NCBI RefSeq assembly: GCF_016097555.1 | Contig: NC_054701.1 | Coordinates: 58,521,679 to 58,585,678, forward strand | Direction: 5' to 3' | From: Gigantopelta aegis | Lineage: Eukaryota > Mollusca > Gastropoda > Neomphalida > Peltospiridae | Length of the DNA: 64,000 nt | Shown: positions 8,457 to 46,643 of the stretch, piece after piece | How positions within the stretch are numbered: position 1 is the first letter of the stretch | Layout: the number at the start of each line of letters is the position of its first letter | Position numbers and translations under genes: made by a program | The notes under the pieces: generated by a model | Told to the model about the DNA's origin: nothing | The model's input: only the letters and a program-made list of their open reading frames with translations | Databases searched by the model: none

Positions 8457-9949
8457 CTAGGCGGCAATAAAAACGCAATCTCGGAAATGATCATGGTTTA
8501 TTTTATTATGCGAGATCCCACAAAAATGAAACTGATACCACCAGTGAGACCAACCACTGGCCCATCTGACTGGCATTGTCAGCCGCCAACAGTGAATCGC
8601 GCATAACGTCTCTGGCGATGTCAACATCATGGGGGTCAGTATTTCGTGTGACCTCCATGTGCTGCGATGCACGCCTGCAGCCTCCTAGGCATGGACATGC
8701 ACAGGCGCCTCACCACACGTCGTGGGATGGCTGCCCAGTGATGCTGCAATGCCTGCTGCAGCTCAGCGAAGTTCTGTGGTGGATTCGGTTGGTTTTGAAC
8801 ACGACGTCCCAGCTCGTCCCACATGTGCTCTATTGGGTTCATGTCCGGGGAAACTGCTGGCCAGTCCAACACAGTGACATGGTGGGCACGAAGAAACGCC
8901 TGTGTACGCCTGGCAGTGTGCGGCCAAGCGTTGTCTTGCTGGAAGACGAGCCTGTTTCCGCCATGCCATCTCATCAATGGGAGGAGGACCGGCCGCAGGA
9001 TGTTGTCGACGTAGTGTTGCGCATTAAGGTTTCCCTGTACCACCACGAGTTCGGACCGGAAGTCAGCACTGATGGCGCCCCAAACCATGACTCCGCCGCC
9101 CCCGTAGCGGTCCCTCTCCAGAACTCAGGCCTGCGCGACACGTTCTCCACGACGGCGGTAAATGCAATGACGTCTGTCCGTGACACTCACGTTAAATCTC
9201 GATTCATCCGAGAAGATGACATCTCGCCATCTCCTGGGTCGCAAATGCCCACCATTCCTGGCCCATAAGAGTCTTGCTTGACGATGTCTGTGCAGGAGGA
9301 TAAGGCCACGGTAGGGTCGGTGGCAATGCAGTCGTGCTGCGGCAAGACGTCTCCGGACAGTTCGGGCGCTGATGAGTCGTCCCCTGGTTCCCACTTCAGT
9401 CCTGGCAGTGGTTGCGGCTGTCAAAAACTGATTGCGCAGGTGCCGCAACTGTATGTTCCGGTCCTGTCTATTGGTCGTTACGCGTGGTGTGCCCGAACGA
9501 CGGCGGTCATTGACGGTCCCTGTCGTCTGATATCGGTTGAGGAGCCGATTAATGGTTGACGGGTGCACGTGGAACCGTTGTGCTACCCACAATTGCGAGT
9601 TTCCGGCATTCAACAAGCCAATGGCTTGATTCCGATCAGCGTTGTTCAACCGAGGCATCGTGTAGGAGTGAGATACTCATTGCCACCCGCGTGTTCTGAG
9701 TGTGCCCGGGTATCAGGAAATGCATGTGCAAAGTGTTATTTCGCCAAGTGGTTGTGTGTGCGCGATTTACCGGATAATGCGTTTTTAGCGTTGTTCCCCT
9801 TATGTTGGGAACAGGCCGGAAGTCGACCTTTACATGCTGCTGAAATAATGTGTACCACTGTACCATGTACATTGACGAATAGCGTCAACTAAGTCCAACC
9901 GGAACGTATATTATTTTGACAAAAGGAAATTGCGTTATTAATGACGGCT

Positions 9950-10658: not shown

Positions 10659-26128
<15,470 letters not shown>

Positions 26129-26532: not shown

Positions 26533-26592
26533 ATGGTGAAAGAAAGTGATTTGATAAAAGCAGTGAAACAAAATGACCAGTCTAAATTGCAG
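26533..26592 (+). CDS. ankyrin gene exon 1 (start codon)
   Basis: This exon has 60 nt and encodes [20 protein letters not shown], ending in phase 0 at CAG followed by GTGATT. It is too short for simple ORF listing; it was found by phase-consistent joining to exon 2, whose residues KLLTDPN continue an ankyrin-like helix. Confidence 0.82.
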
Positions 26593-36667: not shown

Positions 36668-39600
36668 AAAAAAAAAAAAAAAAAAAACGTCTTTACCAAA
36701 GGTCCACATTTTATTTATCATATTTAGATAACATTATGTAAATATTTCTGTGGTTTTTTTTTTTTTCATAGCAATTGTTGGTCCCATCGCAAGGAATTTA
36801 TACACCTCCCTCTCCCCCCGCCGCATTACAGAATTAACAGCTGAACCAGATTTTTCAAGACTTGTGTTCTTAAGGCTCTTGACAAGCTAATCATTATATG
36901 ACATTGTGTATTTAATATTAGTAATACAATGCATTTTTATTCATCTTTATTTTGAAACCCAGAGAAAACACGTGCTCAGTAGTTTTTCAGTTGTCGTTAC
37001 CTTATTTAATTAGCTCAAGTAATTTTACTGGTATATACATGTATTACATGTTGTCATGTGGTTACATGAAATATTTAACTTTATTATTATTAACATAATT
37101 AAAATATCAAATTACAAACGAGCAACATATGCACACTGACGTGACTGTACAAATAAAGACACTTAAATTGCCCACTTTATTTCAGAAATACTGCTTTGCA
37201 CATGGCCGTATTCTCTCTGAATACTGAAATGGTGGACCTCTACATTGAGAATAGTGCACAGGTAATATTTCATTGTATTTTGTAACATCACACATGTAGG
37301 TTACTATCAATACAAGTCAAGTACTGGTATTCCACAATCATATATTACATTGAACTATACACATGTAGATTATTATCAATACAGGTCAAGTACTGGTATT
37401 CCACAATCATATATTACATTGAACTATATATACACATGTAGATTAGTATCAATACAAGTCAAGTACTGGTATTCCACAATCATATATTACATTGAACTAT
37501 ACACATGTAGATTATTATCAATACAGGTCAAGTACTGGTATTCCACAATCATATATTACATTGAACTATACACATGTAGATTATTATCAATACAGGTCAA
37601 GTACTGGTATTCCACAATCATATATTACATTGAACTATACACATGTAGATTATTATCAGGTCAAGTACTGGTATTCCACAATCATATATTACATTGAACT
37701 ATACACATGTAGATTATTATCAATACAAGTCAAGTACTGGTATTCCACAATCATGTATTACATTGAACTATACACATGTAGATTATTATCAATACAAGTC
37801 GAGTACTGGTATTCCACAATCATATATTACATTGAACTATACACATGTAGATTATTATCAATACAAGTCGAGTACTGGTATTCCACAATCATATATTACA
37901 TTGAACTATACACATGTAGATTATTATCAATACAGGTCGAGTACTGGTATTCCACAATCATATATTACATTGAACTATACACATGTAGATTATTATCAAT
38001 ACAAGTCGAGTACTGGTATTCCACAATCATATATTACATTGAACTATACACATGTAGATTATTATCAATACAGGTCGAGTACTGGTATTCCACAATCATA
38101 TATTACATTGAACTATACATGTAGATTATTATCAATACAGGTCAAGTACTGGTATTCCACAATCATATATTATATTGAACTATATATACACATGTAGATT
38201 AGTATCAATACAAGTCAAGTACTGGTATTCCACAATCATATATTACAATGAACCAGTGGTTGCAAAACAAGGCGTCGCATGCGACGTTTACTACCCTCTT
38301 TTCCAACGTTTGTTTTCGCTACAGTTGCTCAGACTCCAGTTCATATTTTCTTGGTTCTTGTCTGAATGTATAGTTCGGCTTCTATGGGTTAATTTCTTCA
38401 GGAAAACTTTGAGTTTCCCACGAATACAGCGTCCATTAATGCTCATTGCCTTTGTTTTTAAAATATATTTTGTTTTGATTCATGAGCACATTCACTGGTA
38501 GACCCAGTGATTTTCTGCGATCGTGGAAAACGGACGGAATTCCCGGAATTCCCATTGTGAAACAGAATTTACATTTGGAAACGGAATTACGATTTTCCGC
38601 GAAGTTAAAAAAACCCCAAAAAACAATTTTACTATTGCCACACTCTGTAAACTGACGATTGACCCGTGCGCAGTACAATTGGCAAATGCTAGACTGGATT
38701 ATGCATTTCACAGTAAACCAAATGGTCACACTGGGAACCAATCAAATACTTCGCGAACGTTAGCGAAACGTTTTCTGGCTGAACTTGGGGCTGGTTTACT
38801 ACTTAGTCTGTTGCGCCTGCGCAGATGGGACAGGTTTTTTTTCCCCATGAGTAAGTTTAGCCAACGGTTTGTCGCTAACGCTTCTCTCGGAAGACAGATT
38901 TTTACGCTACACCTTAAACCGAATGACCATTTCTGGAACCACCAGTCAAAATATGTTTGCTAACGTTTAGCAAAAAACGGCTGGCTGAACGTTGCAATGC
39001 TACTTTATTTCCGCTGTGTCATGAGCATACTTCAATTTGCAGATGACGTTAGACTGTCAAAGAGATGATAAAATAAATGTTTACGTTTTGTGAACCCTAA
39101 GCCCCATTGAATAAAGCAGTGCACTTAATTGTTGGACAATCATGCTTTATGTAGTTATTACAATTGTAGCCTTTGCTCCTGATGTGATTTTTTGCTACTA
39201 ATATGTAGGCTTACTTTGATTTAATGACAAATAGCGACGCATGTCGACGCCAGTAAATTTTCGGACTCTTTAATTTGTTACAACTTGTGTTAGTTCAAAT
39301 GTTAATTACATATTGTAGTCTGAAACGGAAATGAAACGGAATTTACAAAAACATGAAACTGAAAATAGCTTTTTTTTAAAAACGGAAAACCACCGAGTCA
39401 TACTTGTTTTATTCTTGGGCCAACAATTTCACCAACTATATGCATTACAAGTGGACTACATTGCACACTTCTGTGGTAACAGAGTCCGGCCCATAGAGCC
39501 CCCCCCCCCCCCCCCCTTCCCCTCCCCCCATTACTGAGTGTCTGTAGCTCTCGATAAACCTCCAACTCCTGCTCTGGCAGTTCCAACGCCTACTAGTACT

Positions 39601-42600
39601 TCGTTTTGCAACTGCTGATTGAACTATATATACACATGTAGATTATTATCAATACAAGTCAAGTGCTGGTATTCCACAATCATATATTACATTGAACTAT
39701 ACACATGTAGATTATTACCAATACAAGTCAAGTACTGGTATTCCCCAATCATATATTACATTGAACTATATACATGTAGATTATTACCAATACAAGTCAA
39801 GTGCTGGTATTCCACAATCATATATTACATTGAACTATACACATGTAGATTATTACCAATACAAGTCAAGTGCTGGTATTCCACAATCATATATTACATT
39901 GAACTATACACATGTAGATTATTATCAATACAAGTCGAGTGCTGGTATTCCACAATCATATATTACATTGAACTATACACATGTAGATTATTACCAATAC
40001 AAGTCGAGTACTGGTATTCCACAATCATATATTACATTGAACTATACACATGTAGATTATTACCAATACAAGTCAAGTACTGGTATTCCCCAATCATATA
40101 TTACATTGAACTATATACATGTAGATTATTACCAATACAAGTCAAGTGCTGGTATTCCACAATCATATATTACATTGAACTATACACATGTAGATTATTA
40201 CCAATACAAGTCAAGTACTGGTATTCCACAATCATATATTACATTGAACTATACATGTAGATTATTATCAATACAAGTCAAGTACTGGTATTCCACAATC
40301 ATATATTACATTGAACTATACACATGTAGATTATTACCAATACAAGTCAAGTGCTGGTATTCCCCAATCATATATTACATTGAACTATACACATGTAGAT
40401 ATTACCAATAAAAGTCAAGTACTGGTATTCCACAATCATATATTACATTGAACTATACACATGTAGATTAATATCAATACAAGTAGAGTACTGGTATTCC
40501 ACAATCATATATTACATTGAACTATACATGTAGATTATTATCAATACAGGTCAAGTACTGGTATTCCACAATCATATATTACATTGAACTATACATGTAG
40601 ATTTTTCAATACAAGTCAAGTACTGGTATTCCACAATCATATATTACATTGAACTATACACATGTAGATTATTATCAATACAAGTAGAGTACTGGTATTC
40701 CACAATCATATATTACATTGAACTATACATGTAGATTAATATCAATACAAGTCGAGTACTGGTATTCCACAATCATATATTACATTGAACTATACATGTA
40801 GATTTTTCAATACAAGTCAAGTACTGGTATTCCACAATCATATATTACATTGAACTATACACATGTAGATTATTATCAATACAAGTCGAGTACTGGTATT
40901 CCACAATCATATATTACATTGAACTATACACATGTAGATTATTATCAATACAAGTCAAGTACTGGTATTCCACAATCATATATTACATTGAACTATACAC
41001 ATGTAGATTATTATCAATACAAGTCAAGTGCTGGTATTCCACAATCATATATTACATTGAACTATATATACACATGTATAATTATTATCAAATACAAGTC
41101 AAGTACTGGTATTCCACAATCATATATTACATTGAACTATACACATGTAGATTATTATCAATACAAGTAGAGTACTGGTATTCCACAATCATATATTACA
41201 TTGAACTATACACATGTAGATTAATATCAATACAAGTAGAGTACTGGTATTCCACAATCATATATTACATTGAACTATACACATGTAGATTAATATCAAT
41301 ACAAGTAGAGTACTGGTATTCCACAATCATATATTACATTGAACTATACACATGTAGATTAATATCAATACAAGTCAAGTACTGGTATTCCACAATCATA
41401 TATTACATTGAACTATACATGTAGATTATTATCAATACAAGTCGAGTACTGGTATTCCACAATCATATATTACATTGAACTATACATGTAGATTTTTCAA
41501 TACAAGTCAAATACTGGTATTCCACAATCATATATTACATTGAACTATACACATGTAGATTATTATCAATACAAGTCGAGTACTGGTATTCCACAATCAT
41601 ATATTACATTGAACTATACATGTAGATTATTATCAATACAAGTCAAGTACTGGTATTCCACAATCATATATTACAATGAACTATATATACACATCACATT
41701 GTTTTATAGATTATTATCAATACAAGTCAAGTACTGGTATTCCACAATCATATATTACATTGAACTATATATTACACCTGTAGATTATTATCAATACAAG
41801 TCAAGTGCTGGTATTCAACAATCATATATTACATTGAACTATATATTACACCTGTAGATTATTATCAATACAAGTCAAGTGCTGGTATTCCACAATCATA
41901 TATTACATTGAACTATACACCTGTGGATTATTATCAATACAAGTCAAGTGCTGGTATTCCACAATCATATATTACATTGAACTATACACATGTAGATTAT
42001 TATCAATACAAGTCAAGTGCTGGTATTCCACAATCATATATTACATTGAACTATACACATGTAGATTATTATCAATACAAGTCAAGTGCTCGTATTCCAC
42101 AATCATATATTACATTGAACTATACACATGTAGATTATTATCAATACAAGTCAAGTGCTCGTATTCTAGAATCATATATTACATTGAACTATATATTACA
42201 CCTGTAGATTATTATCAATACAAGTCAAGTGCTGGTATTCCACAATCATATATTACATTGAACTATACACATGTAGATTATTATCAATACAAGTCAAGTG
42301 CTGGTATTCCACAATCATATATTACATTGAACTATACCCATGTAGATTATTATCAATACAAGTCAAGTGCTGGTATTCTAGAATCATATATTACATTGAA
42401 CTATACACATGTAGATTATTATCAATACAAGTCAAGTGCTGGTATTCTAGAATCATATATTACATTGAACTATACACATGTAGATTATTATCAATACAAG
42501 TTAAGTGCTGGTATTCTAGAATCATATATTACATTGAACTACACACATGTAGGAAAAGTTTCATGGAGAAGGCCTAGCTGATGAGTTGGAAAATGTTTGC

Positions 42601-45600
42601 CCAATCCATTAAAAATAAAATGTGTTTCAATCAACTTCCCTAAATAGAGTGCATTTTTATGGGCCTGTAAATATATATCTTAAAAGCCAGATATGTGAAT
42701 GTAGGAACAACATGTCAATTAAATAGTCATTCTGTAACAAGACACTTTTAAATCATGTTGTAAAATATGCCTAGTAAGATAACAAATAACTGTTCTGTGT
42801 ATTATTCGATAACTGCATTTACAGGGTAGCTATTGTCTTATACAAACATTACAATGATCTTATTTGGATGGAGTTGTCCTTGGGGACATTTGTTCATTCA
42901 TTCATTCATTCATTCATTCATTCATTCATTCATTCATTCATTCATTCAATATATATATTCATTCATTTTGTAGATTAACCTTATGAATAATGATGGCGAC
43001 ACAGCTCTTCATATTGCTTGTCGAAGTGACATTGACAACAATATAAGTCTTCTTATGAAACTTGTTGATGTAAGTTAACAATATAAGTCTTCTTATAAAA
43101 CTTCTTGATGTAAGTTAACAATACAAGTCTTCTTATGAAATTTCTTGATGTAAGTTAACAATACAAGTCTTCTTATGAAACTTCTTGATGTAAGTTAACA
43201 ATACAAGTCTTCTTATGAAATTTCTTGATGTAAGTTAATCATATGTCTTCTTATGAAACTTCTTGATGTAAGTTAACGATACAAGTCTTCTTATGAAACT
43301 TCTTGATGTAAGTTAACAATAAAAGTCTTCTTATGAAACTTCTTGATGTAAGTTAACAATACAAGTCTTCTTATGAAATTTCTTGATGTAAGTTAACAAT
43401 ACAAGTCTTCTTATGAAACTTCTTGATGTAAGTTAACAATACAAGTCTTCTTATGAAATTTCTTGATGTAAGTTAATCATATGTCTTCTTATGAAACTTC
43501 TTGATGTAAGTTAACGATACAAGTCTTCTTATGAAACTTCTTGATGTAAGTTAACAATAAAAGTCTTCTTATGAAACTTCTTGATGTAAGTTAACAATAC
43601 AAGTCTTCTTATGAAATTTCTTGATGTAAGTTAACAATACAAGTCTTCTTATGAAACTTCTTGATGTAAGTTAACAATACAAGTCTTCTTATGAAATTTC
43701 TTGATGTAAGTTAATCATATGTCTTCTTATGAAACTTCTTGATGTAAGTTAACGATACAAGTCTTCTTATGAAACTTCTTGATGTAAGTTAACAATAAAA
43801 GTCTTCTTATGAAACTTCTTGATGTAAGTTAACAATACAAGTCTTCTTATGAAACTTCTTGATGTAAGTTAATCATATGTCTTCTTATGAAACTTCTTGA
43901 TGTAAGTTAACAATACAAGTCTTCTTATGAAACTTCTTGATGTAAGTTAACAATACAAGTCTTATAAAACTTGTTGATGTAAGTTAACAATACAAGTCTT
44001 CTTATGAAACTTGTTGATGTAAGTTAATCATATGTCTTCTTATAAAAGTTTTTGATGTAAGTTAACAATACAAGTCTTCTTATGAAACGTCTTGATGTAA
44101 TTTAACAATATAAGTCTTCTTATGAAACTTCTTGATATTAGTTAACAATACAAGTCTTCTTATGAAACTGATTGATTTTAGTTAACAATACAAGTCTTTT
44201 ATGAAACATCTTGATGTAAGTTAACAATGTAAGTCATCATATAAAACTTCTTGATGTAAGTTAACAATATAAGTCATCTTATAAAACTTCTTGATGTAAG
44301 TTAACAATGTAAGTCATCTTATAAAACTTCTTGATGTAAGTTAACAATGTAAGTCATCTTATAAAACTTCTTGATGTAAGTTAACAATATAAGTCATCTT
44401 ACGAAACTTCTTTATTTATAAGTCTTCTTATGAAACTTCTTGATTTCAATAACAATATAATATGACTTAATTATGAAACATCTTGACAAAAGTTAATAAT
44501 ATGTTTTCTTATGAAACTCGATCTGTCTGTGGGGCATTTCATGGTATTTTTTTGTGATTGATGTAACATTTTAACACCATAAAATTATGTTTCCACTGAA
44601 ACTTGTGTGTACTTTTCATTACATTTTGTATTAATAGAAACAGGTCTGTCTGTCTGTCTGTCTGTCCCACATATAGTTTCCAGATGTGTTTTTTCACAAT
44701 GCCTTGAGATAGTGAGCTGACATTTTGTTTATAGTTTTATCATGTACCGTTACAGATAAAGTTTGACGTTTATGGCGATTTACCCATTTTTGACAGAGTT
44801 ATGGCCCTTGAACTTGGGAGATATAAAAATGAGTTTTTCTGACTTTTTCTTTTTGCAATGGAATTTTGTATATAGCTTTATCAAGTTTAACTTGTATGAT
44901 GGTTTACCTATTTTTCACAGCATTATAGCCCTTGAATTTAGGAGATACAAAAACTTGTATGGTCTGGAAGGACATGTATTGCTTTAGCAGTACTCTCAGA
45001 ATGCTGAAATTGGTTAAATATTTTTTTTAAAACCAACATTCTTCCCCCAAAAGAGGTCAGAAATTATTTTGACACCGGTCGATTTTTGTGGGTCGATTGG
45101 GTTAAGACAAACAAACCTAATTTTTATTTTTGCCTGGCAGCTTTCAAGTTAGTGTTAGCACACAAAAAGTATATTTTTGTATTTATAATAGGACATTTGA
45201 TGGAGAAAAGCAACGAAAATCACTCATCTTAGATTGTCGTTTGATTATTGTTGCCCATTAACCTTTTAATTTGTATCTAACTACTGAAGAAAATTGTTCG
45301 TGTAAACACTAAAACCACATTAACGACATATTTGTTGTCTGAAAAATTCAGATTTATGCCCTGCTTATTGCTGGCTTACTAGCATGGATATTGTTACAGA
45401 ACATTGCAATGCATACCTATTTTATCATCCCGCATTTGTTTCTCTAGTTCTAACACTCATTCCTGATGTTAAGTATTACGTAACCGCCTGAGGGCGTATT
45501 CACTGGGATGGTACAAAATGGTTGCGCACGTTATATATAATCGCCGTCACATTTAACCGTTTTATTAATTAACTATAAGATTATACTTGTTGATATTAAG

Positions 45601-46643
45601 TAATCACATGCATTATATATCATTGAATATGTATACCAGTCCAAAAAGCCTTGCTCGAGCATCCCTTTAATGAAACAACAAAATGCCATGAAAATGGTGA
45701 AAATTAATGCCTCAAAAGTGTTTTGAGTACATGTAGGCATACATGTATGTATATTTTTCAAGGTACAGTAAAAATGGTTGATTCTTGAAGACTTTAAGGT
45801 CATGAGGTTTGTGTTATTAAATTGCATGTTATTTAATATGTTAATACTACTTAAGGTCAAGTTGAAGCTGTGTACGTTACATTGTAGGCTGGGGCTGACA
45901 CAGAGTGTGTTAATCGAGCAGGGCAGAGTCCCATGGATATGTTGGCCATATACAACAGAAAAAGTAAGTCACTCCATGTGTACACGGTATTGTATTTTAC
46001 AGTTTCTGCAGTCAATAAAATTTGAATTGTTATAATTTAATGTTAAGGGCTGTATGAAATAAAAGCTTTTCAAAATAATGTCACTCATAATATTCTATTA
46101 ATTTAAGTAAATTACATAAAACAACTTAGTTACTGGGTTATTAATAAACATGTGCATTGCAGAACGAAAGTGTTTTAAAACTGTACCTGTAGTATCACTT
46201 AATACGTGGTACTTGTATTATTTAACCTATTAAAGGGACACACCTTAGTTTCAACCCGTGAAAATTAACACTACCTCGTTAAGTTGAGTTACCGGTAATC
46301 TACAAACCTATAACACATTTGGATAAAATTACAACTGAGTGAAACATTAGTCTGACTTTGACATGGTGAAATACCCTCTTTGAATAGACTAAAACTCGAC
46401 TCCATAGCTGTTACTTCTGAGACGCACGTGCATTTTTAAAAATATGAGAAATGCATTTTGTGATATTAAAAACACCAGGATGACCAAAAACACTTTGAAT
46501 GTACAGAAATGGATAATCTAAACAATAGTCAAAAATATGCCTTAGTGTTTAAAAACTAGGGTATGTCCCTTTAAAATACATGTACAATGTCTGTACAAAT
46601 TTGTATTTCTGATCAAACATATAATTATGTATATATACATGTG

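Follow-up and report, generated by a model that had tools for sequence, protein, structure and literature searches.

A tandem array that multiplies the 5′ splice site of an ankyrin-gene exon in the snail Gigantopelta aegis

Exon 5 of LOC121368321, a gene of the deep-sea vent snail Gigantopelta aegis, runs at its 3′ end into a tandem array whose units repeat the last bases of the exon together with its donor. This raises the question of which copy serves as the end of the exon, what the remaining copies would do to the transcript, and whether an array of this kind is kept for a function. We addressed it in a window of 64,000 nucleotides, by which we mean the whole stretch of DNA that was analysed and to whose first letter the coordinates refer. 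The array, its parts and the two exons that flank the intron are listed here, with a caret marking splice borders in this list and in the text.

42974..43069, + strand: exon 5 of LOC121368321, 96 nt long and in phase 0 at either border, ankyrin domain, 100% identical to the database protein P0121
43037..44518, + strand: tandem array of 38 units of ~40 bp, the last one partial, with 34 GTAAGT (31 in register, 3 off register)
43037..43076, + strand: unit 1, the 33 bases that end exon 5, followed by GTAAGTT, with the real donor at 43070
43076..43078, + strand: in-frame TAA just past donor 1, which would stop transcripts spliced at later donors
43117..43830, + strand: three identical 238-bp blocks of six units each, starting at 43117, 43355 and 43593
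44064..44518, + strand: diverged distal part, with the donor gone in units 27-29 and 35-38 and intact in units 30-34, plus the three off-register copies
45888..45963, + strand: exon 6, bordered as cattgtag^GCTGGG...GAAAAA^gtaagt, fitting P0121

P0121 is a database gene prediction for this locus (uncharacterized protein isoform X2, 597 aa). Seven exons joined at GT/AG borders gave one ankyrin-repeat protein, and the 235-aa spliced model is 100% identical to P0121. In window coordinates the exons start at 26533, 34325, 35591, 37186, 42974, 45888, 48734 and 50858 and continue to ~77.5 kb, an exon map by which the number five given to this exon in an earlier note on the DNA is correct. Exon 5 has the borders ttttgtag^ATTAAC...GTTGAT^gtaagt. 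The database protein reads ...SLLMKLVD straight into AGADTECVN, as expected when the first donor is spliced to the exon 6 acceptor (45888), and so agrees with the placing of the exon end at the first GTAAGT in the same note. In an alignment with eight relatives, including seven from named molluscs or a brachiopod, no row was gapped at the junction columns, as judged by eye. The database protein and this homology together show that the first donor is the one joined to exon 6.

Other tandem arrays occur within the same gene. Much of intron 4 is occupied by a 69-bp array in two blocks (37290-38253 and 39629-42552), which begins 28 nt past the exon 4 donor and leaves the exon edge outside. A 21-bp T-rich array (L012, window-relative 72072-72410) continues into the exon 16 polypyrimidine tract and seems to supply that tract for the 3′ splice site of the exon.

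For the array after exon 5, TRF gave a period of 40 with 34.8 copies and 91% matches at 43037-44412, together with a period of 238, and wrap-around alignment pushed the end to 44518, at 38 units. The exon-derived part of unit 1 is AACAATATAAGTCTTCTTATGAAACTTGTTGAT, followed by GTAAGTT at the true exon end. On the + strand, 43037-44530 contains 34 GTAAGT, that is, the real donor and 33 copies. The remainder of the window holds 18 (11 on the + strand and 7 on the − strand) and no comparable cluster; three of these 18 (45964, 61302 and 24316) are real donors, which is a rough yardstick in a gene-dense window. The earlier note had described a unit made of the end of exon 5 plus GTAAGTT, an array that multiplies the exon 5 donor, and more than 30 donors after the first; array and exon anatomy confirm this, with 33 exon bases in unit 1 and 33 donors counted after the first. 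The repeated order of six variants, read there as recent block amplification, is likewise borne out by the 238-bp blocks, which show no mismatch in any of the three pairwise comparisons. A DNA search of the 1.149-Gb assembly, in which the window lies on contig C3 (96,789,575 bases), matched the array only to itself, with very common words skipped and only the best candidates scored.

The donor motif is retained unevenly along the array. In register, GTAAGT is intact in 31 of the 38 units and lost in seven (27-29 and 35-38), while the off-register copies (44229, 44309 and 44349) occupy the left halves of units 31, 33 and 34, a single A-to-G step away from neighbour units reading ATATAAGT. All 31 in-register donors have the ten bases GAT^gtaagtt in common, and the 30 in-register decoys share GATGTAAGTT with the real donor. 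Within units 1-26, the 10-nt donor block contains none of the 11 variable columns (chance 0.024 in a post hoc comparison of units that are not independent), the other unit classes being defined partly by donor intactness. The clean donor block could hint at constraint; selection on the decoys was set aside as a reading of these units, given the post hoc split and their non-independence.

What would a later donor yield? When all 34 donor choices were translated, donor 1 left the frame open across the joined exons, to residue 560 of 597. Every one of the 33 later GTAAGT donors gave a single common product of 148 residues, ending in ...KLVDVS before the stop, because the TAA at 43076-43078 is in frame after donor 1. 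The period of 40 nt is not a multiple of three, as the earlier note had pointed out, but the varied frame-shifted products that it expected do not follow, since every later donor meets the same TAA and frame shifts become irrelevant. The array would thus be at most a two-way switch or a leak and not a source of variety. With donor 2, the stop would stand 31 nt ahead of the exon 5-6 junction, with many junctions further on. A stop followed by many junctions is expected to lead to nonsense decay.

The TAA right after donor 1 also rules out the array as a coding or alternative exon, and no open reading frame runs through the units in the way of a tandem-repeat coding exon. Recursive splicing and microexons were rejected too. 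Between 43070 and 44518 there is no AGGT, and hence no AG^GT recursive (ratchet) splice site, and there are two TAG and no CAG, so that the array lacks both ratchet sites and good acceptors.

Use of the first donor finds no explanation in its strength. Scored with a weight matrix, the exon 5 donor comes fifth among 17 donors of the gene, whose exon borders were picked by script to fit P0121, and the off-register copies score slightly above it. By its computed energy of pairing with the 5′ end of U1, −5.4 kcal/mol, only one of the 17 is weaker. The word 'strong' that had been applied to these donors therefore holds by the first measure and fails by the second. As the copies are the same and the U1 energy is so low in rank, preference over 33 copies is unexplained by strength. 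Masking of donors by RNA structure is equally unsupported: the exon plus the start of the array folds no more strongly than shuffles (z −0.63), and shorter folded pieces gave z of −2.15 (80 nt), −1.73 (21 nt) and −0.21 (120 nt). Eperon et al. are said to have found in 1993 that the intron-proximal donor may be favoured when several donors are equal. If it is favoured here, the array should badly hurt expression, barring a role for the array or a strong exon context.

We consider it likely that the array is a minisatellite born over an exon-intron border, of which the exon-proximal donor is used and the other copies are decoys that may leak, with no selected function. Slippage or unequal exchange would have multiplied, in place, a 40-bp segment that spans the border between exon 5 and intron 5 and comprises 33 bases of the exon and GTAAGTT. 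Growth would be tolerated on the intron side only, because an array spreading into the exon would disrupt the protein, and copy 1 would remain the true exon end. The spliceosome would mainly pair the exon 5 acceptor with the first donor, presumably through exon definition of the 96-nt exon; the entire array would then leave with intron 5, and the remaining 33 copies would act as decoys. Low-level leakage may nevertheless occur: occasional use of donor 2 or a later one would add 40 nt or more and reach the same TAA, giving a short product or a target of nonsense decay, possibly along with exon 6 skipping of the sort reported after the ABCA7 repeat. The decay of the donor motif in 7 of 38 units and the genome-wide counts given below, by which consensus-donor arrays are not favoured, both point in this direction, and we think the array has no selected function and is simply tolerated as a by-product of a genome rich in minisatellites.

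Two of the closest known systems are human. A report on the ABCA7 intron 18 VNTR, whose copy number is highly variable, describes canonical splicing and one-unit retention leading to a frameshift and stop, as well as a cryptic exon 18 acceptor and skipping of exon 19, and a section heading associates repeat length with decreased expression (PMC5954066). In IFI6 (6-16, G1P3), an older case, minisatellite units are reported to serve as donors (Turri et al. 1995, as cited in PMC4526556, PMC2572611 and PMC3618361). Like the ABCA7 repeat, the snail array stands directly after an exon and its first unit carries the exon's donor. It shares with the IFI6 and ABCA7 kind that it adjoins the exon, with the exon's own donor inside unit 1, and that later units keep donor motifs, here 33 further GTAAGT. 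There are also differences. The ABCA7 unit spans 25 bp from the GT on and repeats no exon bases, whereas the snail unit repeats 33, and ABCA7 is the case in which splicing effects have been measured. For IFI6 different isoforms are reported, while the later donors of the snail would all give the same truncation.

These precedents bear on a reading in which the snail array is a copy-number-tunable set of poison donors kept by selection, so that leakage or exon 6 skipping sets the amount of productive mRNA and allele length sets the dose. It would fit with all 33 later GTAAGT donors being non-productive in the same way, and with the one-unit retention, exon 19 skipping and link between repeat length and decreased expression at ABCA7 (PMC5954066). 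We regard it as unlikely, given that 7 of the 38 donor copies have decayed and that consensus-donor arrays are not enriched genome-wide.

The array is not the only one at an exon edge. We fetched 200 kb flanking the window on both sides, giving 264 kb in total, together with places elsewhere in the genome, and the following arrays were found.

16019..17901, − strand: SLC35E3-like acceptor array, repeating ...TTGTAG^TTGGTTGG(A/T)GA(G/A)AAGCAACA... upstream of the real exon (~16036-15877)
131771-133642, window-relative (C3 ~58,653,449-58,655,320): CUB exon donor array (L018), 46-bp unit, 30 GTAAAC
135483-137591, window-relative: EGF exon acceptor array (L019), 39-bp unit, containing a 200-N gap
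C1:3910400-3911800, − strand: donor array (L030) at the end of a diacylglycerol kinase delta-like exon of Gigantopelta aegis
C1 ~1,235,500 and ~1,273,500, − strand: related, putatively C-type-lectin-like exon ends ~37 kb apart (L036 and L037)

The acceptor array that the earlier note had reported in the neighbouring − strand gene is real: the acceptor pattern matches at 19 places, the real acceptor among them. Non-repeat sequence interrupts this array between ~16174 and 16516. In the LVGEKQ frame, its units place a TAG directly ahead of the acceptor position. The exons of this gene were matched by tblastn with a human SLC35E3 query (E-values 6e-43, 1e-14, 4e-14 and others). The joined piece hit Pfam EamA at 2e-6 and TPT at 4.9e-6, the latter below its cut-off, and single-exon pieces hit no Pfam family at 0.001. 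Also on the − strand of the window, 8636-9676 carries open frames, which we take to resemble a Tc1/mariner-type transposase.

In the flanks, the CUB exon itself occupies 131771-131971 in window coordinates and, joined to the next exon, gives a CUB domain (E 3.3e-20); all 29 of its later donors lead to a stop. The EGF array has 38 exact TAG^GTGTGACTGT, including the real one, ahead of the EGF exon at 137420-137591 (Pfam EGF 1.2e-5). Seven of the eight upstream sites to the right of the gap meet stops and only the nearest stays open in frame, where it would add 13 residues. That the window holds arrays of both splice-site types, a point made in the earlier note, is thus true of both arrays but less special than it seemed, since similar arrays recur nearby and elsewhere.

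Such recurrence could mean that a mutation process coupled to splicing or transcription acts on exon edges, making them preferred sites of array formation in this genome. Four clear cases in 264 kb (the window donor, the window acceptor, the CUB donor and the EGF acceptor) look commoner than our hand estimate of chance; exon edges were judged where homology was obvious among 30 array rows in that sequence, and the window itself had been selected for arrays. The 200 kb outside it were not so chosen and contain two clear exon-edge arrays among ~21 array loci (23 rows), where by hand ~0.1 would be expected with recognisable exon edges and up to ~0.5 on a generous count. The chance of two cases is near 0.007 and 0.08, computed for 0.12 and 0.46 expected, in an estimate that leans upward as genes beside arrays were annotated first. 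The three real donors among 18 GTAAGT outside the array serve as a yardstick that also speaks against targeting.

The genome-wide counts show no excess. Three AGGTRAGT gave 3,599 matches against 4,150 in the mirrored control, counts in which a few large arrays weigh heavily, and three GTAAGT with gaps gave 22,172 against 65,741 in the backward control, which we think is inflated by tetranucleotide repeats. Both controls exceed the real patterns, and enrichment of donor arrays as a class was rejected. Eighteen places were fetched. For the GTAAGT pattern these were 12 of the 16 loci listed on C1, leaving aside three that were simple-repeat-like and one with a further copy of a unit already included, and they comprised one confirmed exon-edge array (L030) and three pieces fetched without the array start. 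For AGGTRAGT they were six of the eight listed loci, leaving aside two simple-repeat-like ones, with two probable cases (L036 and L037) and one piece without the array start. Among all 18, one is thus confirmed, two are probable, 11 are not of this type and four (L026, L032, L033 and L038) have the array start outside the fetched piece.

At L030 the exon is identical to the diacylglycerol kinase delta-like protein in 61 of 61 residues, 18 GTAAGT run from the exon end onward, and the database protein again takes the first. The L036 and L037 exons are each followed by a 47-bp donor array with nearly the same unit, which suggests that the array was carried through gene duplication. Both exons are probably C-type-lectin-like; neither hit a family at 0.001, and the L036 matches were a Pfam E of 0.0057, below cut-off, and a best PDB E of 2.2e-4. 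At L031 the array starts 87 nt past the donor of an exon-like stretch and not at its edge, and this stretch hit no Pfam family even at E 5; the three donors of L039 are not repeats. A 46-bp array at C1:1173772-1174643, starting in L035, has units with CCCCTGCAG^GTGAGT, and no exon was seen at its start. We take this border to resemble a recursive splice site consensus.

Weighed against the yield of the 18 places and the lack of excess over the mirrored control, preferential formation at exon edges appears very unlikely. Because consensus-donor arrays do not exceed the mirrored control, random birth across exon edges in a repeat-rich genome is sufficient for now. TRF arrays of any kind make up 13.6% of the 264 kb, and a published study compares the tandem-repeat share of G. 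aegis with that of another snail (PMC7736800). A broader possibility is that hundreds of exon-edge arrays act as length-variable rheostats and make minisatellite turnover a major source of heritable splicing variation here. This strikes us as quite doubtful, 'hundreds' being an extrapolation from few places and not a count.

An assembly artefact, whether in the number of copies or in the three perfect 238-bp blocks, we judge highly improbable. Perfect long repeats are hard to assemble and the neighbouring EGF array holds a 200-N gap, but the ordered variant pattern, the diverged distal part and the finding of no other copy in the DNA search argue for a genuine array, and an error could change the count and not its existence. 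U1 binding protects introns from premature cleavage and polyadenylation, a process termed telescripting. Least probable of all is that the copies form a U1-site array which shields the 2.8-kb intron in this way or boosts exon definition: 34 GTAAGT do lie within 1.3 kb directly downstream of the exon, but intron 5 is only of middling length for LOC121368321, the 18 other GTAAGT of the window are unclustered, and the donor is weak by U1 pairing energy.

A birth over an exon-intron border, as preferred here, has a parallel in the potato RdRp gene, for which intron gain via tandem duplication over such a border is described (PMC4974935). In both cases the duplicated segment spans the border and brings its splice signals with it. 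In potato a single duplication gave a new intron, whereas the snail has a many-fold array and one intron kept, and the snail array contains no AGGT and hardly any acceptor-like AG.

Among the titles and abstract openings listed for our search terms in an open-access library, none concerned splice-site arrays in molluscs. To our knowledge, copy-number variation at exon edges as a source of variation in expression is known mainly from human IFI6 and ABCA7. The snail array is a clean example of a rarely described phenomenon with human precedents. What it adds is that all 33 decoys converge on one nonsense product and that exon-edge arrays recur in this snail. It also amounts to a natural competition for one acceptor among 31 in-register donors, which are identical over ten bases, nearly identical over the 30-odd bases before them, and distinguished mainly by position. 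Counts of junction reads would gauge to what extent exon definition prevails over the intron-proximal rule, with a clean read-out because every choice other than the first gives the same nonsense product. Should this snail prove rich in such arrays, differences in copy number at its exon edges would be a testable source of variation in expression.
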